From Bacteroidota bacterium (GTDB taxonomy: Bacteria > Bacteroidota > Ignavibacteria > Ignavibacteriales > Ignavibacteriaceae): 64,000 nucleotides of DNA. Numbering within the stretch: position 1 is the stretch's first letter; every line of letters starts with the position of its first letter. Below, in pieces: positions 10,454-44,306 of this stretch. Under the pieces are notes generated by a model. It made no database searches. It saw only the letters and a list, made by a program, of their open reading frames with translations, and was not told the origin of the DNA. The stretch is from NCBI GenBank assembly GCA_020161395.1, contig JAIUOE010000002.1, positions 434,001 to 498,000 on the forward strand, in the 5' to 3' direction. The position numbers and the translations under genes were made by a program.

Positions 10454-11747
10454 ATTCCAACTCTCCGTATATCAGAATGTCTGTCAGATTCACCCCTGTA
10501 TGTCCCGTCCTGACTGCAGATCCTGTCCTTGCAATCCACTCACCGGAATTGCTGGAATTAAGATAACGGTCAAAATCAAGACCTTCTTTCAAACTCTCCG
10601 GAAAAGTGTCGCCATCGATAACAGCTCCGGCAAAAGAGGTCGTGCCATCTTTACCATCTGTACCAGCGGCAAGAAGCACCGCTTCCCTTCCGGCTATGAG
10701 TCTTGAAAACCTCATGGCGAACTCGCATGCCCTTCCCCCGGTTCCCTCTCCTTTTACTGTCACACCCGGTTCAGCTCCGGCTATGATCAGAAAAGGCAAT
10801 CCTGAGATTCTCCGCCTCTCTTTTGTTATCCTGCACTTTTCAAAGAAAGCAGTAGCCGCCTCTTCAACATTGCCTGTTAGAGGATCGTCGCAGACCACAA
10901 ATTCCATCTTCGATTCTGATGCAAAATCTGCCAGAGTATGAAGAAATTTTCTGTTCGAATCGATGATCCTTGTTTCAGGGATGAATTTTGATTTTTGGAT
11001 GGATGCATCTGTTTTTTGAAGAGTTTTTAATATCCGGTCGATAAATCCGGCATCGGTATCATCCGAAAACCTTTGCAGAATATCTCTTGTCTTTCCGGTA
11101 TCTGCCTCGGAAGGAACCAGCATCCCCGACCCGATAACCCTCACATCATCGGACAATACATCCGAAATAATGAGATTAAGAATATGTTCTGTATTAATAA
11201 AATTGAGCAATCCCCCGCCCTTTATTTTTGAAACAGAAGTCCTGACCTCGTTCAAGTTTTCAATTTCGATCCCCCCGTTCATCAAAATCGCTGTGAGCCG
11301 GCGTTTATCTTCAAGAGTTATACCATCCACCGGTGCAACGGCCATTGCTGAGGTGCCACCCGACAGAAGGTAGATTAAGAGGGAATCAGGCGGGACGGTT
11401 CTACAAAACCCGATCAGTCTTTCACCGGCAAAAAGACTTCTTTCATCAGGAAGAGGATGTGATGAAACCAGAATTTCGAAGGGGGGAATTTCCTGCGGTT
11501 CGTCTGAATTGGTGATTATCAGTCCTCGTGAAACTCTGTCACCAAAAAATCTGAGGGCACCTTTGGCCATGTCAACAGCAGATTTTCCCGTCGCGACTAT
11601 TTCAACACTCTTGTAATCCTTAAGCTTCGAATGGTGTTCCCTAAGAGCATTATAAACGATTACAGAAGGATTGTGAGAGACTAACGCCTCCCGGAATATT
11701 CTTTCGACCTCCTGCTTCAAAGCAGCCGTTTTACTATACGCGCTCAA
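10452..11747 (-). CDS. Glycerate 2-kinase (MOFRL family)
   Basis: 431 residues with the two parts of class-II glycerate kinases: an N-terminal DUF4147 domain ('VEIVATGKSAVDMAKGAL', 'ILVSSHPLPDERSLFAGERLIGF', 'LLIYLLSGGTSAMAV') and a C-terminal MOFRL domain ('ISGLPFLIIAGAEPGVTVKGEGTGGR', 'LLAAGTDGKDGTTSFAGAVIDG'). It phosphorylates D-glycerate to 2-phosphoglycerate, linking serine or glyoxylate degradation to glycolysis. No other pathway gene is adjacent. Its start overlaps the end of the receiver-Hpt gene upstream by 14 bases, so the two share a transcript. Confidence 0.93.
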   Translation of the reverse strand: MSAYSKTAALKQEVERIFREALVSHNPSVIVYNALREHHSKLKDYKSVEIVATGKSAVDMAKGALRFFGDRVSRGLIITNSDEPQEIPPFEILVSSHPLPDERSLFAGERLIGFCRTVPPDSLLIYLLSGGTSAMAVAPVDGITLEDKRRLTAILMNGGIEIENLNEVRTSVSKIKGGGLLNFINTEHILNLIISDVLSDDVRVIGSGMLVPSEADTGKTRDILQRFSDDTDAGFIDRILKTLQKTDASIQKSKFIPETRIIDSNRKFLHTLADFASESKMEFVVCDDPLTGNVEEAATAFFEKCRITKERRRISGLPFLIIAGAEPGVTVKGEGTGGRACEFAMRFSRLIAGREAVLLAAGTDGKDGTTSFAGAVIDGDTFPESLKEGLDFDRYLNSSNSGEWIARTGSAVRTGHTGVNLTDILIYGELE

Positions 11748-12852
11748 GCATTTTCTTTCGAATATTCTCCAGAGTTCCTGTTGCCTCGGTCGTCATTTTA
11801 ATTATCTTCTCAAGAATCAATGACTGACCGTGCTTGTTAATATCAGGCTTTTGAAGATTCAGATGAAATTTCTCCATCAGCGGAATAATCTTTTTTAATC
11901 CCATGTATGAAAGAACGGGTTGAAACTTGTGGCACAATTCTCTGGCCCTTTTAATGTCATCATTCCCAAGGGAAGATTCCAACTCACGAAGTAAAGGTCC
12001 GGAATTTTCGAGAAAACTCTTGACAATATCTGAAGCAAAAAGAATGTCATTATTAGATACTTCCTTCAGGTATGTAAGATCGACAAGCTCATCAACAATA
12101 AAGATATCATCATCTGATCCGTTGTTAATGAATTCAAAACGGGGTTCTTCAAACAGAAAGGATTGGACAGCAGCAATCAGTTCCTTTGAAACAATCGGCT
12201 TTCCTATGTAACCATTCATGCCTGATTCAGCCACCCTTGCTTCACTTTCAGACCTCAACGCTGCCGTCAATGCTATTACCGGAGTGCGACTTTTCGGTTC
12301 CGGAAACATGTCCCTGATTCTTCTGGTGGCTTCGTAACCATCCATAACCGGCATCGATATGTCCATTAAAATCAAATCATAATCGTTTGCAGCTACTTTT
12401 TCTATCGCCTCCTCACCATTCCAGGCATGATCGAGAAGCAGATCGAGGTTTGACAGAATGCTTTCCACCACTTTCTTGTTAATTTCATTATCCTCCACAA
12501 GAAGTACCTTTTTCCTTCCCTTCGATTCCTCTGACAGGTTTCCTTTTTCCCGGTCAGAATCTGAGTTTTTCAGATTTTTCGAACCCGAAACCGCCTCCTT
12601 CGTAATTGAAACCTGAATCACTCCCCTGTAGAGGTCTTCATCGATCGACAGAATAAAAAACTCAAATCCTGTACCGTCAATTTCTTTGTAAAAACGCAGC
12701 GAGCCGGCTCTTAGTGATGATTTTATCCAGTCACAAAAATAACCTGTGAAACTGTCTGTTTCACCATCGGGAAATTGAATATCATCATCGAAAATGAATT
12801 TGTGAATGGAAGGAAAGTAGCTGAATCTTGCTGTTGAAATGACTTGTTGCAT
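11734..12852 (-). CDS. Receiver domain - Hpt protein with unknown N-terminal domain
   Basis: 372 residues. Residues about 1-90 are an unrecognised domain with no membrane segment. A receiver domain follows ('KKVLLVEDNEINKKVVESIL', phosphoacceptor Asp in 'DLILMDISMPVMDGYEATRRIR', then 'TPVIALTAA' and 'GYIGKPI'). The C-terminal helices, with 'RARELCHKFQPVLSYMGLKKI', resemble a histidine phosphotransfer domain whose phospho-His would be in 'LCHKFQ'. There is no kinase core, so it probably relays phosphate from a separate hybrid kinase. No DNA-binding output domain is present. Confidence 0.8.
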   Translation of the reverse strand: MQQVISTARFSYFPSIHKFIFDDDIQFPDGETDSFTGYFCDWIKSSLRAGSLRFYKEIDGTGFEFFILSIDEDLYRGVIQVSITKEAVSGSKNLKNSDSDREKGNLSEESKGRKKVLLVEDNEINKKVVESILSNLDLLLDHAWNGEEAIEKVAANDYDLILMDISMPVMDGYEATRRIRDMFPEPKSRTPVIALTAALRSESEARVAESGMNGYIGKPIVSKELIAAVQSFLFEEPRFEFINNGSDDDIFIVDELVDLTYLKEVSNNDILFASDIVKSFLENSGPLLRELESSLGNDDIKRARELCHKFQPVLSYMGLKKIIPLMEKFHLNLQKPDINKHGQSLILEKIIKMTTEATGTLENIRKKMLERV

Positions 12853-26471: not shown

Positions 26472-29400
26472 TTACTTAATTAATGAAAGTTTTTTGGTTG
26501 AAACGAAACTCTTGCCGAGTGCATCAGTAGCTATCATTCTGTAGATATAGATTCCCGATGCCATATTGTGGGTATATGAATCTATCATCATCGAATAGTA
26601 GCCTGCTTCCAGTTCCTGACTAAGAAGTGTCGCCACTCTTTCTCCGGTAATGCTGTATAGCTCTATCGTAACCTTTGCATCCATTGCCAACTGATAGTCA
26701 ACCTTCGTGGACGGGTTGAACGGATTCGGATAGTTCTGGCTTAGTGCAAACTCTGTCGGTACATCAATAGTAACTTCCACTTCATTACTGTATGAAGTTG
26801 TGCCATCGTTGTCGATCTGTTTCAGTCTGTAGTTATGTTTTCCGGATGAAAGTTTCTTATCCTCATAAGTATAATACTTCGGTGAGTTTGATGAACCAAA
26901 TCCCTCAACAAAACCGATCTTCTTCCAGTCGCCGTTTTTGTCTTTTCTCTCAACTTCGAAACCGGAGTTGTCTGTTTCAGTTTTGGTTTCCCATGTGAGA
27001 TTCACATTGCGGCTCTTCGCTTTTGCAGAGAAGTTTACGAGTTCAACAGGAAGAGGGACACTAGCCTCATCAGCACCCATATAAGGAAATGTAGCGCTTC
27101 TCGACTCATTATCTATATCCTTATCTGAGATGGATAAGATTGGTGTTCCAATCAGGTTCAAATCACCAACAGAAGCTCCACCCAAATGAAGGTCTGTAGG
27201 GCTCAGAAACTGCGTTGCTCTGGTCACTGAATTATTATCCCCGGCGGATGAATTTTTCCACTCAGAAAAATCCTTTAAAACCGATACCCACTCTCCAATA
27301 GAAGCGGAATTGGAGGAATATAAATTGTTATAATTACTGGAAGTGGCAGTCCAGCCAGTTGCAGATGAAACACCAATTGCAAAATGGTAATTACCGGTGC
27401 CTCCAGTTCTGGTATTTACTAAAATATTATTTCTAAGATTATCCGTAGATGGAGTTACTGTTACCGGTCGACTGAATGAATAACTGTTGTTCGTTCCCGA
27501 GCCTGAATGAGATCCACTAATAACTACTGTGTTATAGTAGAAACCATTTGTGCCTGAAGCTGAGGTATCTGCGATACCACTTATTCGTGCATCATTGGAA
27601 ACTGTTTCACCAACTGTAACCATATTGTTGATGTAATTGGCAGTACCGGCCAATATCAACATACCCCAAACTCTTGATGAATTCAGGCCAACACCAGTTG
27701 CAACTGTAGTTATAGTATGCACTCTATTTCTTTGAACAATTGCATCGGTCGCAGCGGTTGGAATTGAGATTACAAATCCAGCAATTGTGTAAGCCCCAGA
27801 TGTATTGTTGGTGTGCTGAATGTTATAGACTCGATTTGAATCCAAGATATTGCCTGTGGTGGCTGTAGGTGCAAAAACAATTCCGGCAGGGAAAAAGGAG
27901 GTAACCCCCGAGGCTGTACCTGTCGAGTTCGATTTTATGTCCCGAACAACATTATTCTTAACAATCCCAGTACCGGATGATACAATAATTCCGAATGCCC
28001 TGTCACCACCTGCATCCCAATAATTGATGTTCCCGATCTCATTATTCTCAATTCTGCAAACACCTGTCCCCGAATAACTAATCATCTCTGAGTCGTAGCC
28101 CAACCTTATCGTGTCTGGGCTGGAAGCATTTCCTCCTATAATATTACCGGCGGAAGATCCAATTTCCACATTCCCGGCAGAAACACGAATCATTCTGGCT
28201 ACACCTGTAGAATTATCACAAAAGATATTCGATAAAGTATTACCATTGACCTTTGAAGCAGTTACGGCTCCGACACTTAGTTGGATCCCAACAAAAATAC
28301 CTGTGGTGCTTAATGGCGAGCCACTTCTATCAATTGCCGCACCACCTATACTATTCCTGTTAACAGTGTGGTTGTTCCCGGTTCCAATATTTATGCAAGT
28401 TAACGCAGTTGTTTTTGAGCTAACTTGAAATATGTAGTTTGAATCAACATTCCAATTATCACCTGCTGATGATAAATTGACACCAGAGCCGGTAAAATTA
28501 TAGAACTGATTATTTCTGATGATACCAGATGAATTTAATGTTGAGGATGAATAGATTAGATTAACAGGTAGAGCAGTTAAATCTGACCGGTCTCTGACCT
28601 TGTTATTTCTGATCTCATTGAAAGAATTACCAACGGTCCCTGCTCCAAACATCACAACACCATTCGTTGTAGTGGTATTTCCACCCTCAACAGTACAATA
28701 CTTGATAGTGTTATAGGTTGCATCAGAAGCAAAATTGATGACAGGGGCTGTATTTAGTGAATTCCTAATTAGAAATGAAGAAGGAGACTCAGACCCGTCT
28801 ATAGTCACATAGTCAGCACCGTTAAGATTGAAGATAGCTGTCGAATTGCTTCCGGTGATGGTAACATTTGTACCTGTTTGCGGTTTAATCGTTACAGTAT
28901 TTGTTGCAGAACTACCGGAAAATTGATTAATGGTCAGTGGGAAAGTCTCGGATGTAGAATAGCTGGCATCGGTTAAGATAAACCTCACAGAACTAGAGAC
29001 ACCTACTGCGTTTAACCGGTTAATGGCAGTTGACAGTTTATCGAATGGGGCGGTTTGTCCGGTTCCGACAAGGTAATCTCCTGAGAGAGGACCTGCAACT
29101 GAAAAAGTTGTGGTTAATGTGTCATTAGTTGGAAATTCATCTCCACTAAGTTCTGAAATAACTTGTAAAGTATATGCTCCTGCTGCAAGACCATCAGTTC
29201 CTGAAGAATTAAAGTCAACCGATAGAGATGCACCAGCTGTCAAACTCGATACAGTAATTACTTCATTATACACTTCACTGACGGCCGGTAATGGACCTTT
29301 GATGATCATTCTGACATCAAAGCCGGATTGATCAATTAATCCATAATTCTTAAAAGTTGCTCGTGGGGTAAAAAGTTGACCTTCAATTTGAGTACCGCCG

Positions 29401-31787
29401 GCGGAAGGCGTAACGAAGGCAAGTGAACCTATGTCATTATTATAAATCGGTGTAAAGTTACCCTCGTAGGCACCGATATCAGGATTGGTAGCGTTCCTTG
29501 TTGTGTTGTTAAAATCTAATGTTATAGAGACTGGAGTACCCCCGTTGGCAATAAAAGTGGGTACACCCAATTGAATATTCAAATCATATGTACCACTCGT
29601 ACTGACAAATGGAACATCCTCTGTTTTTGCATTTGTTTCTCGTGGTGACACTAACCATGCTCGATAAGTCGTCAATGTTTGATACCCGGTGGTAGCATCA
29701 TATGCGAGTAAATTTTTTGAACTTGCTGTTCCAGCAAACAACAAATTGTTGTTAGATGTAGTGGCAATCTGTGTTCCGATTGTTGCTGTCGTTTTATAGA
29801 ATGCTACCGCTCTGGTTGCCGTACCCGTAGGTGCTGTGGTACTTTTATTAACAAAAATGTTGTTCCTGGAATCAAGAATTGTCGATGTACTGGAAGCCAT
29901 GTATAAACACGCTGTCTGAAAAGATGTTGTAGTCAATGTTGAGGTTGCATCAAGATATACAGTGTTATAGTATAAATTAACCGTAACTGCTGAATTAAGC
30001 TCTATACCTCGAATTCCGGGAGCCCCGGTGCACGCAGGATTATTCAACTGATATATGAGATTGTTATTGCAATTTATAACCCCGGATGCAGATGAAGCGA
30101 GCAGCATTCCACGAGTCGATCCAGAACCTGTAGAAGCACCTGTTATCTTAAAAATACGGTTCCTCGATATGTTAAAAGGTCCCACCCCAGCTGCTCCATT
30201 AGTCCATAACCCATAAACAACTTGAGTACCAGTAGAGGATGAAGTAAAATCGTGAAGTATGTTTTCACTGATAGTGGTTGTTAAGTTTGTAAAAGTACTG
30301 TTAATGACTATTCCTGCCAAATCATTAGTGGATGAAGTGCTTGTGTTAACGAGATTTCGAATTTCACACTTTTCCACTTTGACATTATCCTGACCCAGTA
30401 ACTCAACACCCCTTAGCCCGGAACTCTGACTTACTGTTGCATTTCCAATGTCATTATAACCTGTTGCTGCACCACTAATAGGTGAGATGTACGAAGGATC
30501 GGCAGTAATAGTGTTATATCTGTCACGATTTGTTGAACTACCTCCTGACAACAGGATTCCTCGATATGCATTTTGAGACGACACATTTTTAACTGTGTTA
30601 TAGCTGTTGTTTCCGTTCGTATCTGTTGGTGCTGTCCAAGCATGAATTCTAAACGCAATGGACGCGGTGTTTGAAGAGGATGCGGTATTTTTCAAGTTGA
30701 CGTTGCAGTTTATCACATTATTGAATCTTGCACCGTTTGTTGAGGTTGCATTGACCATGTTCAGACCAAATTCGACAGTTGTTGATGTACTCCTCGTTAT
30801 AAAGTCAAGACCGTTTATCGTTACGAAATCTGATCCGAATAACATAAAAAGTGCATCCCCTGCTGTACCTGATGCCCCTGAACCTTCATTAGTAATTACC
30901 GGATTAGCACCCACTCCTGATTTTTGAAAGGTAATTGTACTCAATGATGTTCCGGTTGCCTTTAGAGTATCTACATAATTATCAAATGTTTGCCCCGCAG
31001 CAATGTTGAAAGTCACAGAACTGGAAATTCCATGCGCATTGAGAGCGGAAACAGCTTCACTCAGACTTTGAAAGTTAGAGGAAGATGTCGATGAGGTATT
31101 GTCAACGGTATATGAACCCGCAAGCGGAGTTACTGCCTTGGAAAGCAAAGTTATATTATCTACCGCTCCGGCCGGACTAGAGCCACTGGTTGCGTCATTT
31201 TTCCAAGAAAATACCAACCTTTGAGTGGTTCCTGCAGCTGAAGCAGGTATAACAAAAGAGTAGGTAGTATAACCTGTTTGTAGATTAATATATTGATTTC
31301 CAAGTCTTACTTGAGTGGCCGAAGCAGTCAATTGTGTCCCGGCGACCGGAGTTACAGTTGTGGGGATTAAAAACACCTGAACAAAATCAAAAGTGCTTTC
31401 ACCAACCCCTTTATAATCAAATGTCAAAGTAATTGCTGTTTCGCCAACCGGGAAAGTCACATCTCTATAAAAATGATTTGTTGAGGCACTTGTTAAAGTA
31501 TAGTTATTATTGACCCCTAAATCATTGGATATATAAGCACCATTCGTTCCACTTTTTTTTGTGGCGGTACCAACATACCATGGATTCGCAACGCCATTTA
31601 TTTCAGTCCACCCATTTGCAGCGAATGATGCACCGCTTTCAAAGCCACCATCTCCTGAGGGATTTATCAATACTGTTTGAGAGAATAGATTTGGACTTAA
31701 AGATCCCATTAAAACTGTCACCCAAAACAAAAGGGAGCGACAATTAATTTTGTTACAATAAATGAATGTGTGTAACCTTTTTTTCAT
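26472..31787 (-). CDS. Giant beta-helix surface protein with type IX secretion sorting domain
   Basis: 1771 residues. A signal peptide (ending near 'NLFSQT', about 37) is followed by a beta-sandwich domain (about 40-215), then two copies of one module: a 'GSYTVDN..F.SLSEAVSALNAHGISSSVTF' unit at about 225 and 'GDYLVGTGQ..FDKLSTAINRLNAVGVSSSVRF' at about 900, each leading into a long Ser/Thr/Asn-rich right-handed beta-helix. An FN3-like domain ('VELVNFSAKAKSRNVNLTWETK', about 1580) and a type A sorting domain ('LSQNYPNPFNPSTKV' to 'STKKLSLIK', about 1680-1771) end it. It is exported and attached or released by T9SS. Substrate (polysaccharide binding or cleavage) cannot be told. Confidence 0.92.
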   Translation of the reverse strand: MKKRLHTFIYCNKINCRSLLFWVTVLMGSLSPNLFSQTVLINPSGDGGFESGASFAANGWTEINGVANPWYVGTATKKSGTNGAYISNDLGVNNNYTLTSASTNHFYRDVTFPVGETAITLTFDYKGVGESTFDFVQVFLIPTTVTPVAGTQLTASATQVRLGNQYINLQTGYTTYSFVIPASAAGTTQRLVFSWKNDATSGSSPAGAVDNITLLSKAVTPLAGSYTVDNTSSTSSSNFQSLSEAVSALNAHGISSSVTFNIAAGQTFDNYVDTLKATGTSLSTITFQKSGVGANPVITNEGSGASGTAGDALFMLFGSDFVTINGLDFITRSTSTTVEFGLNMVNATSTNGARFNNVINCNVNLKNTASSSNTASIAFRIHAWTAPTDTNGNNSYNTVKNVSSQNAYRGILLSGGSSTNRDRYNTITADPSYISPISGAATGYNDIGNATVSQSSGLRGVELLGQDNVKVEKCEIRNLVNTSTSSTNDLAGIVINSTFTNLTTTISENILHDFTSSSTGTQVVYGLWTNGAAGVGPFNISRNRIFKITGASTGSGSTRGMLLASSASGVINCNNNLIYQLNNPACTGAPGIRGIELNSAVTVNLYYNTVYLDATSTLTTTSFQTACLYMASSTSTILDSRNNIFVNKSTTAPTGTATRAVAFYKTTATIGTQIATTSNNNLLFAGTASSKNLLAYDATTGYQTLTTYRAWLVSPRETNAKTEDVPFVSTSGTYDLNIQLGVPTFIANGGTPVSITLDFNNTTRNATNPDIGAYEGNFTPIYNNDIGSLAFVTPSAGGTQIEGQLFTPRATFKNYGLIDQSGFDVRMIIKGPLPAVSEVYNEVITVSSLTAGASLSVDFNSSGTDGLAAGAYTLQVISELSGDEFPTNDTLTTTFSVAGPLSGDYLVGTGQTAPFDKLSTAINRLNAVGVSSSVRFILTDASYSTSETFPLTINQFSGSSATNTVTIKPQTGTNVTITGSNSTAIFNLNGADYVTIDGSESPSSFLIRNSLNTAPVINFASDATYNTIKYCTVEGGNTTTTNGVVMFGAGTVGNSFNEIRNNKVRDRSDLTALPVNLIYSSSTLNSSGIIRNNQFYNFTGSGVNLSSAGDNWNVDSNYIFQVSSKTTALTCINIGTGNNHTVNRNSIGGAAIDRSGSPLSTTGIFVGIQLSVGAVTASKVNGNTLSNIFCDNSTGVARMIRVSAGNVEIGSSAGNIIGGNASSPDTIRLGYDSEMISYSGTGVCRIENNEIGNINYWDAGGDRAFGIIVSSGTGIVKNNVVRDIKSNSTGTASGVTSFFPAGIVFAPTATTGNILDSNRVYNIQHTNNTSGAYTIAGFVISIPTAATDAIVQRNRVHTITTVATGVGLNSSRVWGMLILAGTANYINNMVTVGETVSNDARISGIADTSASGTNGFYYNTVVISGSHSGSGTNNSYSFSRPVTVTPSTDNLRNNILVNTRTGGTGNYHFAIGVSSATGWTATSSNYNNLYSSNSASIGEWVSVLKDFSEWKNSSAGDNNSVTRATQFLSPTDLHLGGASVGDLNLIGTPILSISDKDIDNESRSATFPYMGADEASVPLPVELVNFSAKAKSRNVNLTWETKTETDNSGFEVERKDKNGDWKKIGFVEGFGSSNSPKYYTYEDKKLSSGKHNYRLKQIDNDGTTSYSNEVEVTIDVPTEFALSQNYPNPFNPSTKVDYQLAMDAKVTIELYSITGERVATLLSQELEAGYYSMMIDSYTHNMASGIYIYRMIATDALGKSFVSTKKLSLIK

Positions 31788-39494: not shown

Positions 39495-40453
39495 AAAAAA
39501 TTCTTCTCTTTTTAGCTCTGGTTTCTCCCCTCTTTCTGTCGGGTTGCTTCTCTTCAACAGTGATTGATGAACAGAAGACAGCATCGCAAAGTGACGGGGA
39601 CGATTTCTTCAACCTCGCAAACGACCTGATAAACCGGAACAAAACGGGTCCGGCTCTTATTTCCCTTGATGAGGCTTTCAACAGCTATTCACTTCTCGAT
39701 GATGTTTCCGGGAAAACAAAAGTTCTTCTAAAAAAGGCAAACATCTACGCTTCGATGGGTGATTACAAAAAGGGAGACAGCATCCTCTCAGCGGAGTTTC
39801 TTTTATTGCCCGGCAGAAGTGATTCGATAAATTACCTTAATTCCCTCTCGGAATACTACTACACTTCGCAAAGATATGACAGTGTTATAGCCCTTTCGAA
39901 GAAATTCAAGGAACAGTATTTTTCCTCTTCACTCGCTCTTATTTCAACAGCTTATCTTGCGCTTTCAAAATTTGCAGTTAAAGCTGATTACGGGATCGAA
40001 CTGACGAATCTCAACAGTGCTTTTGTTGCTTTCGACCGTGATTCCCGATACCCGGGTGACCAGCTGGCCTTTTCATACTACACACGGGCGTTTATTGCTT
40101 TGGCGGAAGGTAAAACCGAAGAGGCTTCGTTCTGGGGTGGAAAGGCGTATGATCAGGACTTGAATAATGAAGACTATCTCGCCATAGCTTATGATTTGGA
40201 ATTCCTCGGAAAGGTAGCTGAGAAGAAGGGTAATCCCGATAAGGCATCCGGTTATTTCAAACGGGCATCTGATTCTTACTTTGCACTCGGTATTGAGGAG
40301 CCAGCAATCGTCTGCGAGGTGAAAAGCCTCATTCACCGGTTAAATACAAAAGGCGATAATCCATTTCTGAAAAATCGCCTCAAATTTCTTAAGGACAGAA
40401 TAAAAGATCCAAACCTGCTGGGTGAGATCGAAAAAATCGTCCCTAAACAGTAA
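39491..40453 (+). CDS. TPR-like lipoprotein of the second Mla operon
   Basis: 320 residues. A lipoprotein signal ('PLFLSGCFSST', lipid Cys near 19) is followed by helical repeats of TPR type ('KVLLKKANIYASMGDYKKGDSIL', 'AFIALAEGKTEEASFWGGKAYDQD', 'GKVAEKKGNPDKASGYFKRASDSYF'). It overlaps the MCE gene by 4 bases, so it is likely an outer- or inner-membrane-anchored periplasmic partner of that MCE complex. No catalytic motif is visible. Its end overlaps the convergent gltX end by 11 bases. Confidence 0.8.
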   Translation: MKKILLFLALVSPLFLSGCFSSTVIDEQKTASQSDGDDFFNLANDLINRNKTGPALISLDEAFNSYSLLDDVSGKTKVLLKKANIYASMGDYKKGDSILSAEFLLLPGRSDSINYLNSLSEYYYTSQRYDSVIALSKKFKEQYFSSSLALISTAYLALSKFAVKADYGIELTNLNSAFVAFDRDSRYPGDQLAFSYYTRAFIALAEGKTEEASFWGGKAYDQDLNNEDYLAIAYDLEFLGKVAEKKGNPDKASGYFKRASDSYFALGIEEPAIVCEVKSLIHRLNTKGDNPFLKNRLKFLKDRIKDPNLLGEIEKIVPKQ

Positions 40454-41903
40454 GTTTTTTACTTCCCGTTTCAATTCGGAAAAGCACTTCATCTTTTCCA
40501 AGAGCATCGAGTATCTCGAACAGTCCTGGACCCGATGACACTCCGGATACCAGAAGCCTTACGGGGTGTATCAGCTTTCCTGCTCCGACACCGTTTTCCT
40601 CTGCTGCGCTTCTGAGAGCTGTTTCCCAGTCTTCCTTGGAAGGTGCATCCATTGCATTTATTTTTGCAGAATAAGCCTCCATCAATTTTGGAGTATCTTC
40701 CTTCCAACCCTTTTGAACACCCTTTTCTTCATACGAATCGGGACGGGAGAAGAAATATGGTGCATTTACGGGAATCTCTTTTATGAACTTCACTCTTTCC
40801 TTCATACATGAAACGACCTTGGTCAGATAATCTTCAGTAATTTTTTCTGTCAAAGTCATCTCCTGAGCTATCAGTTCTTCGCGGAGCAGACGGGCAAGTT
40901 CGTTATCAGTCTTCGATCTCAAATGTTCCGCATTCAGCCAGTCGAGTTTCTCGAGATTAAAAACGGCACCCGATTTGTTTATTCTCTCGAGCGAAAATGA
41001 AGCGATCAGTTCATCCATATTATAGAATTCCCTGTCGTCACCGGCATTCCAGCCCAAAAGGGAGATAAAATTGATCAATGCCTCTTTCAGATATCCTTTG
41101 GCACGGTAGTCTTCAACCGCCACATCACCCTGTCTCTTGCTCAGCTTTGAACGATCGGGATTCAGAAGAAGCGGCAGATGTGCAAATACAGGCACTTCCC
41201 AACCGAATGCTTCATAGAGGAGCACATGCTTAGGAGTCGAGGGCAACCATTCTTCACCGCGAATGGTGTGTGTAATCTTCATCAGGTGGTCATCAACCAC
41301 ATTAGCGAGGTGATATGTCGGAAATCCGTCACTTTTTATCAGAACCTGATCGTCTATAATTGAAGTATCAAAATCGATATTTCCTCTTATAATATCCTTT
41401 ACGAGTACTTTGCTGCCGTGTCTGACATTCATACGAACAACATAGGGGATACCCGAAGCAAGTTTTTCTGTCACTTCCTCTTTGGAAAGCTTCAGGCAGT
41501 GTTTGTCGTAAACAGTCTGTTCGTTCCGGGCTTTTTGAGCCTCTCTCAGAGTGTCGAGTCTCTCTTTGGAGCAGAAACAGTAGTAGGCATGTCCCGACTC
41601 GAGAAGTTTGTCCGTGTGTTCTTTGTAGATGTGCGGCCGTTCCGACTGTGTGTAGGGCCCGTACTCACCCTCGATTCCCGGACCTTCATCATAATGCAGG
41701 CCCGACCACTCGAGAGTTGAAATAAGATTTTCCACGGCTCCGGGAACATACCGCGTGCGATCGGTGTCCTCAATTCTGAGGATAAACTTTCCACCCGATT
41801 GTCTGGCGAAAAGGTAGTTGTAAAGTGCGGTTCTTAGTCCCCCGATGTGTAAATAACCGGTAGGGCTGGGGGCAAACCTTACCCTTGGGTATTCTGATAT
41901 CAT
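40443..41903 (-). CDS. gltX: Glutamyl-tRNA synthetase
   Basis: 486 residues, full length. The class-I HIGH motif is 'APSPTGYLHIGGLRTALYNYLFAR' split around residues 11-34; the KMSKS motif is 'KLSKRQGDVAV'. The C-terminal anticodon-binding helices are complete. It charges tRNA(Glu), and tRNA(Gln) in organisms that use the GatB route found elsewhere in this window. The zinc-binding cysteines common in some GltX ('YCFCSKERL') are partly present. It converges with the TPR lipoprotein gene with an 11-base overlap. Confidence 0.96.
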   Translation of the reverse strand: MISEYPRVRFAPSPTGYLHIGGLRTALYNYLFARQSGGKFILRIEDTDRTRYVPGAVENLISTLEWSGLHYDEGPGIEGEYGPYTQSERPHIYKEHTDKLLESGHAYYCFCSKERLDTLREAQKARNEQTVYDKHCLKLSKEEVTEKLASGIPYVVRMNVRHGSKVLVKDIIRGNIDFDTSIIDDQVLIKSDGFPTYHLANVVDDHLMKITHTIRGEEWLPSTPKHVLLYEAFGWEVPVFAHLPLLLNPDRSKLSKRQGDVAVEDYRAKGYLKEALINFISLLGWNAGDDREFYNMDELIASFSLERINKSGAVFNLEKLDWLNAEHLRSKTDNELARLLREELIAQEMTLTEKITEDYLTKVVSCMKERVKFIKEIPVNAPYFFSRPDSYEEKGVQKGWKEDTPKLMEAYSAKINAMDAPSKEDWETALRSAAEENGVGAGKLIHPVRLLVSGVSSGPGLFEILDALGKDEVLFRIETGSKKLTV

Positions 41904-41933: not shown

Positions 41934-44306
41934 TTAAGCCGGATTGTTTGTATATTTCTTTACTTTTTCAATAAACTCAACGCTGTCGATCGGTTTTGGG
42001 ATATAATCTGTTGCACCGGCGTCAATACATTTTTCGCGGTCACCTTTCATTGCGAATGCAGTAAGAGCGATTATCGGAGTATCTTTATACTCGGGCATCT
42101 GTCTAACCCGTTCGGTCGCTTCAAAACCGTTCATGACCGGCATCTGCATATCCATCAGGATGATGTCATATTTCATCTTTTTAGCCTGTTCCACAGCCTC
42201 GGCGCCATTTTCACAAACCGTTACATTATTGAAACCGTTCTTTCTGAGAAGACGGGTAACAATAATCTGAGAGTGTTTGTAATCTTCCACAAGAAGAATT
42301 ACGGGACCTGTTGGCTCGGGAGCTGCTGCTGCCTGACCTGTGCCACCTGAAGCGGCACCACCGGTATTCGAAACAGGTTCGGTTCTGTTAACCATTCTGC
42401 TTATTGTATCAGCGAGGTCTTCAATTTTCGTACTTTTTTTGTCGAGAAGCTCTGTGAAAAGTCCGTTAATCTTTGCGAGGTCTTCCTCATAATTCTCTTT
42501 GCCGGTGTAAATAATGATCGGCAGACTTGCAAAACGGGAGTTTGATTTAATCTCTTTTATCAGCTCAAAACCGTTCATCTGAGGCATGTCGAGATCGACT
42601 ATCGCCAGATCGAGGTCCATGTTGGCAATCTTTGCAGGTACTTCGTATGAGAAGTTTTCAGCGACAGGATTGAAACCTGCCGACTGTATCGCCTCTTTTA
42701 CAAGATTTAGAGTGTTCAGGTCATCATCCACGCAGAGGACATTGGCATCGCGCCTCAATTTGTAGCTCGTCAGCACTTCAACAAGGTCTTTATAGCTGAT
42801 CGGTTTTACAAAATACTCTACCGATCCCATCAAAAACGCCTTTTGCTGCTCGGCTTCGACTGAACAGACAATCACAGGCGTATGTCTGTGAAGCTTGTTT
42901 TCCCTGATTTTCCGGAGGAGTTCGAGCCCGTTTATATCGGGAAGTGTAACATTAGTAATGATCGAAAGGAAACTTTCATTCTCAAGAATCTGCAATGCCT
43001 TCAAGCCGGCATTTACGATTGTGGGTTCATATCCCCATTTGTTGAGATAATTGCTGAGAAGTTTCGAAGTGGCGTAATCATCTTCAATGACAAGAACACG
43101 GTTGTTCTGGCTTGCGGGTTTGGGAAGTGATTCCATCTGGCTTGCAAACATCGAACTGCCGGTAAGCAGAAGATTTATGGAAATACTGACTCCCTGTCCA
43201 CTCTCCTTGCCAATTATGAGTTCACCTTTAAGGCTCTCAATGTATCTTTTGGCAAGATTGAGCGAGAGAGCTGAAACGCTGGTCAGTTTTCCTCTGCCGT
43301 CATGAATCTGGCTGATCCGGAATGCATCCTTCAGTTTCTCAGGAGGCATCATTAGTCCCGAATGATATACCTTGATTGTCAGAATCCCACTCAAGGATTC
43401 GGTAGCTGTTACTTCGATTCTGCCGTAAGGATTTTCATTCAACAAAAATGCAAGGATGGATGAGATTGCAGTTTTAAGTTTCTGTTGATCAGATTCAATT
43501 TCCTTAGGCACTGCTTCACCTATTGCAAACTGGAGTGAGGTAACATTGGCATCTGTTTTTTCTTTGAAACTTTTCTCGATTTCATCCAAAAGTCCCTTCA
43601 GTTCGAAAGGAGCATTCTGGACAACCGCACTTCCCGCGGCAACCTTTGAAATATCGATCAAATCATTAAGCAGACTGGATATCTTCTGAGCGTTATCCTT
43701 TATCAGCTTGACATACTCTGTCTGAACAGAACTCAATTTGTCATCATAAAGAAGCGATGCAAAGCCAAGAATGCTGTTTGCAGGAGTCCGAAGATCATTC
43801 GAAACATCGAGCAACAGTTTATTTATTGATGAATCGGAAGTGTAGGTGACGAATTTCGCGGAGCTCAACACTATCAGCAAAAATTTCCCGAGAACTTCTA
43901 TATTATCAATGTCACTTTGACTGAAAGGCGACTTCCGGGTCAGTTTCAAAACGAACTGTTCCTCTGAATTCCCCTTCATTTTCAGGCATCCCTCGTACAC
44001 CAGGAAATCGGTTGACTGAATCTGACATTTTTTGTCAATATCAAAAGAAGAAACACCCGATGAAGTGTCGTGAAGCTTGCAGACACCACAGACTGATTCA
44101 CTTCCGATGACAAGGCTCTTTTTTACATTGTCAGACTTGCCAATTAGCACCAGTTTATCGTTTACAGGTTTGAAAAGGGCGGCGGAGTAAAACTCAAATT
44201 CAGCAGAGATGAAGTTGCATAACTGATTCAGGAGGTTTTCCCCCGTGCTGTCAGACTGAAACAACTGATTTATTGATTTAAACAAGGATATGATATTCGA
44301 TTGCAT
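41934..44306 (-). CDS. Hybrid pseudo-histidine kinase with three receiver domains
   Basis: 790 residues, soluble. A GAF-like N-terminus (about 1-150) leads to a HisKA/HATPase-like core in which the phospho-His is replaced by Asn170 ('DVSNDLRTPANSILGF'), and the ATP-binding lid has lost its usual N- and G-boxes ('SSILAFLLNEN', 'VYHSGLMMPPEKL'). Receiver 1 has Asn452 where Asp is expected ('IITNVTLPDING'). Receiver 2 (Asp571, 'VDLDMPQMNG') and receiver 3 (Asp719, 'MDMQMPVMNG') keep the acceptor Asp and the CheY-like Lys region. An Ala/Gly/Pro linker (about 650-665) separates them. It likely gates phosphate received from another kinase. Confidence 0.9.
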   Translation of the reverse strand: MQSNIISLFKSINQLFQSDSTGENLLNQLCNFISAEFEFYSAALFKPVNDKLVLIGKSDNVKKSLVIGSESVCGVCKLHDTSSGVSSFDIDKKCQIQSTDFLVYEGCLKMKGNSEEQFVLKLTRKSPFSQSDIDNIEVLGKFLLIVLSSAKFVTYTSDSSINKLLLDVSNDLRTPANSILGFASLLYDDKLSSVQTEYVKLIKDNAQKISSLLNDLIDISKVAAGSAVVQNAPFELKGLLDEIEKSFKEKTDANVTSLQFAIGEAVPKEIESDQQKLKTAISSILAFLLNENPYGRIEVTATESLSGILTIKVYHSGLMMPPEKLKDAFRISQIHDGRGKLTSVSALSLNLAKRYIESLKGELIIGKESGQGVSISINLLLTGSSMFASQMESLPKPASQNNRVLVIEDDYATSKLLSNYLNKWGYEPTIVNAGLKALQILENESFLSIITNVTLPDINGLELLRKIRENKLHRHTPVIVCSVEAEQQKAFLMGSVEYFVKPISYKDLVEVLTSYKLRRDANVLCVDDDLNTLNLVKEAIQSAGFNPVAENFSYEVPAKIANMDLDLAIVDLDMPQMNGFELIKEIKSNSRFASLPIIIYTGKENYEEDLAKINGLFTELLDKKSTKIEDLADTISRMVNRTEPVSNTGGAASGGTGQAAAAPEPTGPVILLVEDYKHSQIIVTRLLRKNGFNNVTVCENGAEAVEQAKKMKYDIILMDMQMPVMNGFEATERVRQMPEYKDTPIIALTAFAMKGDREKCIDAGATDYIPKPIDSVEFIEKVKKYTNNPA

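Follow-up and report, generated by a model that had tools for sequence, protein, structure and literature searches.

DivL of Caulobacter carries PAS domains, has a Tyr at the position of the phospho-His and possesses no receivers of its own, and RetS of Pseudomonas combines a periplasmic sensor with two receivers. The motifs of the kinase core are described here by their usual names and consensus, namely the N-box Asn, G1 (DxGxG) and G2 (GLGL). DivL has been reported to keep a HisKA/HATPase fold without a phospho-His, to take a response-regulator-type domain as its partner, and to be without kinase and phosphatase activity (PMC4211667), and RetS is described as a hybrid kinase that controls another kinase, GacS (PMC5992135). 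These represent two routes for acting without or beside catalysis of one's own, by reading a response regulator or by controlling a kinase (PMC4211667, PMC5992135). Also described are ShkA of Caulobacter, whose kinase is reported to be stimulated by c-di-GMP bound to its pseudo-receiver (PMC7010744), and AirS and NreB of Staphylococcus, kinases with four Cys in the N-terminal sensor region (PMC4601167), spaced C-x7-C-x-C-x17-C in AirS, where they are reported with a [2Fe-2S] cluster (PMC4601167). A published survey reports that 722 of 76,471 HisKA domains (0.9%) are without the His (PMC12632262). Pseudo-histidine kinases are already known; what is new here is a lineage-wide variant, in which loss of the His spans one orthologous family in most genomes of an order, intermediates included. 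A literature search by titles and the beginnings of abstracts of open-licence PMC papers returned no mention of this family.

The window, by which we mean the whole 64,000-nucleotide stretch analysed, contains a minus-strand open reading frame with an ATG start and zero internal stops that encodes the protein we call P0001. Its features, with the gene that follows it, are:

41934..44306, minus strand: whole P0001 gene, 790 aa plus stop, with the order GAF-like sensor, pseudo-HisKA, pseudo-HATPase, REC1, REC2, REC3
43857..44306, minus strand: GAF-fold sensor, residues 1-150, with conserved Cys30, Cys73, Cys76, Cys94 and Cys107
43635..43823, minus strand: HisKA (DHp), residues 162-224, with Asn170 at the phospho-His position
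43164..43490, minus strand: HATPase_c (CA), residues 273-381, with N, G1 and G2 boxes degraded
42759..43100, minus strand: REC1, residues 403-516, with Asn452 at the phospho-Asp position (Asn in 10 of 132 orthologues, the window copy counted)
42396..42746, minus strand: REC2, residues 521-637, with Asp571 kept (132 of 132)
41949..42305, minus strand: REC3, residues 668-786, with Asp719 kept (131 of 132), the best-conserved domain of the protein
40443..41903, minus strand: gltX (glutamate--tRNA ligase), 30 bp downstream of P0001, a pairing found in 109 of 131 other loci

An earlier note on this DNA, made from the letters of the window, had called Asn170, Asn452, Asp571, Asp719 and degraded N and G boxes, and all of these calls were correct on re-reading. 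Asn170 lies in the context SNDLRTP, and Phe287 stands where the N-box has its catalytic Asn. G1 reads HSGLM (315-319), keeping Gly317 with replacements at His315 and Met319, and G2 reads ALSL (346-349), with replacements at Ala346 and Ser348. The architecture is nonetheless recognisable in the profile search that the note had proposed: in Pfam, HisKA scores 48.2 bits (cut-off 26.9), HATPase_c scores 28.2 bits, barely above its cut-off of 26.4, and the three receivers are also matched. The AlphaFold2 model of the whole chain has a pTM of 0.43 and does not give the domain arrangement. Foldseek placed the core closest to ShkA (top match, 6qrj), GacS, RetS (6dk7, 6dk8 and 7n0e, TMt 0.77-0.84) and DivL (4q20, TMt 0.63-0.70), and also matched HK853 and CpxA; because GacS, HK853 and CpxA are active kinases, the fold is not proof of inactivity. 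P0001 differs from each of the better described systems. DivL is reported to lack enzymatic activity, whereas inactivity of the P0001 core is predicted from sequence; the Cys4 sensor of P0001 is GAF-like, its His column varies freely (Asn170 in the window) and it has three receivers. Unlike RetS, it has a GAF fold from its first residues and three receivers. It resembles ShkA in that REC1 of the window protein, like the pseudo-receiver of that hybrid kinase, is without its Asp, but ShkA is catalytically intact, whereas P0001 has lost the His, the N-box and most G-box residues.

A clear match to P0001 occurs in 147 of 164 Ignavibacteriales genomes and in 103 of the 109 of good quality. At E <= 1e-40 the number of genomes with a match is 155 of 164, eight of them weak (best E 1e-42 to 1e-60), and these eight may be fragments or paralogues. 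The 11 close relatives (L001-L011), 40-64% identical in the best segment, are all from MAGs named as Ignavibacteria, Ignavibacteriales, Ignavibacteriaceae, Ignavibacterium, Melioribacteraceae or Bacteroidetes/Bacteroidota, and several are protein-identical to other loci in the orthologue set. That set comprises 132 distinct full-length orthologues from 145 loci, the window's own copy (L081) included, after exclusion of four short sequences (L008, L011, L109, L214) and 9 duplicates; fragmentary orthologues lie mostly outside it, and some of the MAG sequences may contain errors. One further sequence set comprised the window protein and 85 of 105 other retained sequences.

Over the 132 orthologues the phospho-His column reads His in 28, Asn in 32, Gln in 30, Ser in 10 and other residues in the rest. 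The N-box Asn is present in 24 and the G1 Asp in 84. His alone is kept by 25, the N-box Asn alone by 21, both by three (L094, L139 and L167) and neither by 83; none of the 132 combines H, N and D with the two glycines of G1 and the first of G2. Retention of His is uneven, at 23 of 59 in f1 (the window's family), 2 of 59 in f2, 0 of 5 in f3 and 3 of 9 rows among named records. A substitute phospho-His was sought across residues 150-400 of the 132 orthologues, and no conserved His column was found there; only columns 170, 294 and 308 carry His in at least 10 sequences, and 294 and 308 are mostly Lys or Arg. P0001 thus combines a recognisable histidine kinase architecture with an absent His, no conserved substitute for it, and lost nucleotide-binding motifs, and the residues bear out the proposal of a pseudo-kinase core. 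By the same reading, the great majority of orthologues have lost at least part of the phospho-His and nucleotide-binding residues while their DHp/CA fold stays recognisable. Since 28 of the 132 keep the His, and three keep it together with the N-box Asn, some members may be active.

The genome of the window itself offers a yardstick. It has 72 HisKA matches including P0001, and we read 70 of the 71 others, leaving out the weakest. The His is present in 69 of these 70, which suggests that its loss from P0001 is more than chance, and the N-box Asn is present in 68 (lost in L282, unreadable in L270). The one other domain without His is in L290 (G000:C2:47868-51999), a 985-aa frame with Leu at the phospho-His position (GLEIRDP) and the N-box Asn kept, and so a second candidate pseudokinase in the same genome. 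L282 (G000:C3:176946-181128), a 1136-aa frame, keeps the His (FHEILTP) while its N-box region reads LILKVIS, and is possibly a phospho-acceptor without ATPase.

Repeated loss of catalytic motifs is what one would see in a decaying pseudogene without function; moreover, the gene has an in-frame stop in G106 and G268, among the genomes listed, and in good genomes it is unmatched twice (G263, G311) and only weakly matched four times (G200, G237, G254, G323). However, whole-gene dN/dS is 0.055 (28 pairs), the receivers hold invariant residues, and the pairing with gltX is kept. We reject the pseudogene reading as exceedingly improbable, contradicted by this ratio and by the clear matches in nearly all good genomes. 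By domain, dN/dS is 0.071 for HisKA, 0.104 for the linker plus HATPase and 0.017-0.033 for the receivers, from the 26-31 of 43 pairs per domain that were unsaturated, saturated-dS pairs being omitted; these ratios are rough because many remaining dS values exceed 1. Uncorrected pN/pS between pairs that both lack the His (n=32) is 0.14 for HisKA, 0.23 for HATPase and 0.04-0.07 for the receivers, and between pairs that both keep it (n=9) 0.09 for HisKA and 0.19 for HATPase. By these measures the core is still under purifying selection despite its lost catalytic residues.

That constraint, and the Pfam scores of HisKA and HATPase_c above their cut-offs, would also suit a core, or His-keeping members, with weak kinase or, likelier, phosphatase activity on their own receivers. 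The conserved His is reported not to be required for phosphatase activity (PMC12632262), and the residue directly after the His column is Glu171 in 106 of 132 orthologues, the window having Asp. Nevertheless, the N-box Asn has become Phe and the G1 Asp has become His in the window, and at least 41 changes of letter at the His column on our tree indicate that no replacement chemistry became fixed. Such residual enzymatic activity seems to us distinctly improbable.

The tree was a quick one, built from the receivers and rooted on a sister clade, and changes were counted by equal-weight parsimony. The minimum is 8 changes for the His and 10 for the N-box Asn, rising to 17 and 19 losses if regain is excluded. 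The root states of the His, the N-box Asn and the G1 Asp are ambiguous under equal weights, so the loss counts lean on the assumption of no regain, and regain of any of the three is conceivable. For an association of His loss with the state of the N-box, D-box or Cys4, the tree provides 5 independent pairs, which is few.

The sister clade, f13 (L291-L295, five genomes of the same class), holds the closest relatives that we found beyond the order, at 28-30% identity. Its members share the HisKA/HATPase/REC1-REC2-REC3 order with P0001, but all five have kept the H, N, D and G residues of the core, which makes loss from an active ancestor the likelier direction. The two members scanned with Pfam, L291 and L294, have a PAS domain and a C-terminal Hpt-like domain, the latter above the cut-off in L291 and below it in L294, and the ancestor may also have carried an Hpt. 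When pairs are compared at matched REC3 identity (67-88%; for the sister, 10 pairs drawn from 5 proteins, and for the order family 7797 non-independent pairs), HisKA is 85% and HATPase 69% identical in the sister, whereas the order family has 44% and 31%. The receivers of the order family are, by contrast, somewhat more alike than those of the sister (REC1 69 v 64%, REC2 68 v 54%, REC3 81 v 76%). Order-family pairs that both keep the His are intermediate and somewhat more constrained, at 65% in HisKA and 46% in HATPase.

The receivers behave quite differently from the core to which they are attached. REC2 presents D527-D529, D571, T601 and K623, REC3 presents E674-D675, D719, T749 and K771, and Thr601, Lys623, Thr749 and Lys771 are each found in 132 of 132 orthologues. 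The phospho-Asp is retained in 122 orthologues in REC1, 132 in REC2 and 131 in REC3, and an 80-sequence alignment shows no variation at REC3 columns 671 and 674-687. The view of REC1 as dead therefore holds for the window protein, where Asn452 takes the place of the Asp, but it is not typical of the family; retention of the phosphorylation residues in REC2 and REC3 holds for nearly all of it. We infer that REC2 and REC3 are phosphorylated by another protein, a proposal strengthened by both being near invariant while the attached core decays, although the conservation of the receivers could instead reflect binding. The sole orthologue without the REC3 Asp is L102 (G191:C3:726544-728868), which has Val there and comes from a genome, G191, without an Hpt match. 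Two other Hpt-less genomes, G195 and G299, keep the REC3 Asp, so a link between Hpt and this residue is at most a hinted one.

The neighbourhood of the gene is stable on one side. In the other loci that show the pairing, gltX (TIGR00464, 565 bits) follows directly on the P0001 strand and is 58-97% identical to the window gltX; the remainder of the 131 comprise 3 loci without a downstream ORF and 19 with a different gene or frame. The gap to gltX is 8 to 560 bp outside the window, and a search of the 300 bp downstream of P0001 found no tRNA. The pairing might, as a guess, reflect co-expression with translation capacity. Upstream, the most frequent cluster of shared genes occurs in 25 of 131 loci, and the MoxR and SurA genes that neighbour P0001 in the window are present in 3 of 131. 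Elsewhere in the window, the minus strand has an open frame of 1771 aa at positions 26472-31787.

The lack of a conserved neighbouring kinase, with no upstream cluster in more than 25 of 131 loci, weighs against a modulator like RetS or ChrS, in which the dead core would heterodimerise through its DHp helices with an active kinase and inhibit or redirect it while the receivers drain its phosphate. Heterodimers of the pseudokinase ChrS with HrrS are a reported precedent for such an arrangement (PMC9491836). The HisKA part is less variable than the ATPase part (mean entropy 1.73 against 2.30 bits), which fits a dimer interface, and the best fold matches include RetS, both by itself and bound to GacS (7n0e). 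Nonetheless, a mean pair identity of 44% makes HisKA variable, unlike what one fixed heterodimer partner would lead us to expect. We consider such a modulator unlikely, and it overlaps and is compatible with the reading of P0001 as a receptor phosphorylated in trans.

Pfam gave 0 families at E <= 0.1 for the N-terminal domain of the window protein, and GAF was absent from the best 25 of 27 families for 86 members of the domain. AlphaFold2 modelled the N-terminal domain with a mean pLDDT of 89.8, and Foldseek matched this model to GAF-named entries from E 9.7e-6 (TMq about 0.5-0.66), including the ptsP GAF, the NLH2 GAF and fRMsr. The proposed GAF-like sensor is in this way supported by predicted fold, though without a match to the Pfam GAF profile. 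Cys30, 73, 76, 94 and 107 are retained in 115, 117, 119, 126 and 116 of 132 orthologues respectively. The set of four (Cys73, 76, 94 and 107) is complete in 112, lacks at least one member in 20 and all four in 6. Its spacing is C-x2-C-x15-18-C-x11-12-C in the 89 complete rows measured (x2, x17 and x12 in the window). In four sensor cysteines the family resembles AirS and NreB, but its spacing differs from that of AirS. By this analogy, the Cys4 may bind a metal or an Fe-S cluster or act as a thiol switch. A profile of the sensor run against 296 genomes of the phylum (E <= 0.001) gave a single match in each of 28 genomes of the order and, outside the order, one 45-residue match with two stops; it found no match at E <= 1 among solved structures and none at E <= 0.01 among plasmids.

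The earlier note had named as one candidate partner a receiver-Hpt protein encoded at 11734-12852 of the window, the first ~115 residues of which have no Pfam match. Some match to it at E <= 1e-15 exists in 76 of 77 order genomes, but full-length matches, among those listed, are limited to 2 of 77 (the window genome G000 and its congener G149). In a second congener, G261, a single 446-aa frame carries two partial matches, and beyond these three genomes the best E per genome is 1e-38 or weaker. Matches listed from elsewhere fall in the receivers or receiver-Hpt ends of different proteins, and in many cases this is REC3 of the dead-core protein. Receiver-Hpt matches were also obtained at 131 of 131 orthologue loci, and we set these aside as receiver cross-matches to the orthologue itself. 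A protein restricted to close relatives is a poor partner for an order-wide P0001, and this part of the proposal is not supported, although the pseudo-kinase core, the GAF sensor and the intact REC2 and REC3 did; the note had also overlooked the gltX pairing, the four-Cys motif and the sister family. Hpt domains are found (E <= 0.01) in 108 of 113 order genomes and not in the other 5. At that threshold none was found in G191, G195 or G299, each with a full-length orthologue, which suggests that an Hpt step is not general. G311, one of the two good genomes without a P0001 match named above, is likewise without an Hpt match.

Taken together, these observations lead us to regard the P0001 family, with moderate confidence, as a lineage-wide pseudo-histidine-kinase receptor whose REC2 and REC3 would be phosphorylated in trans. 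The core would act as the scaffold of a dimer and link the receivers to the Cys4 GAF-like sensor, and REC1 would be a receiver whose own Asp was lost in the window's lineage. Donors of phosphate for REC2 and REC3 would most simply be one or more of the ~70 other HisKA kinases, and a donor kinase might dock on the invariant face of REC3, formed by its first helix and the loop after its fourth strand. Because there is no DNA-binding or enzymatic output domain, output would be by protein-protein binding or by removal of phosphate from a partner pathway, possibly with the cysteines as the gate, according to their redox or metal state. The decay of the core while the first helix of REC3 stayed invariant favours trans phosphorylation and output by binding.

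More tentatively, and with rather less than even confidence, we suggest a redox or metal receptor that is found across the order and has a private Cys4 GAF-type domain as its base; a full phosphorelay kinase would here have become a phosphate-receiving adaptor. The core would have been switched off independently many times while REC2 and REC3 were frozen; on this account, that combination implies that kinase activity became dispensable early in the order and that a conserved partner has fed the receivers in trans ever since. The P0001 family offers a natural series in which to ask what is left for a hybrid kinase to do after it has dropped catalysis. The strong conservation of its receivers predicts a trans kinase that can be searched for, and the Cys4 domain offers a testable signal.
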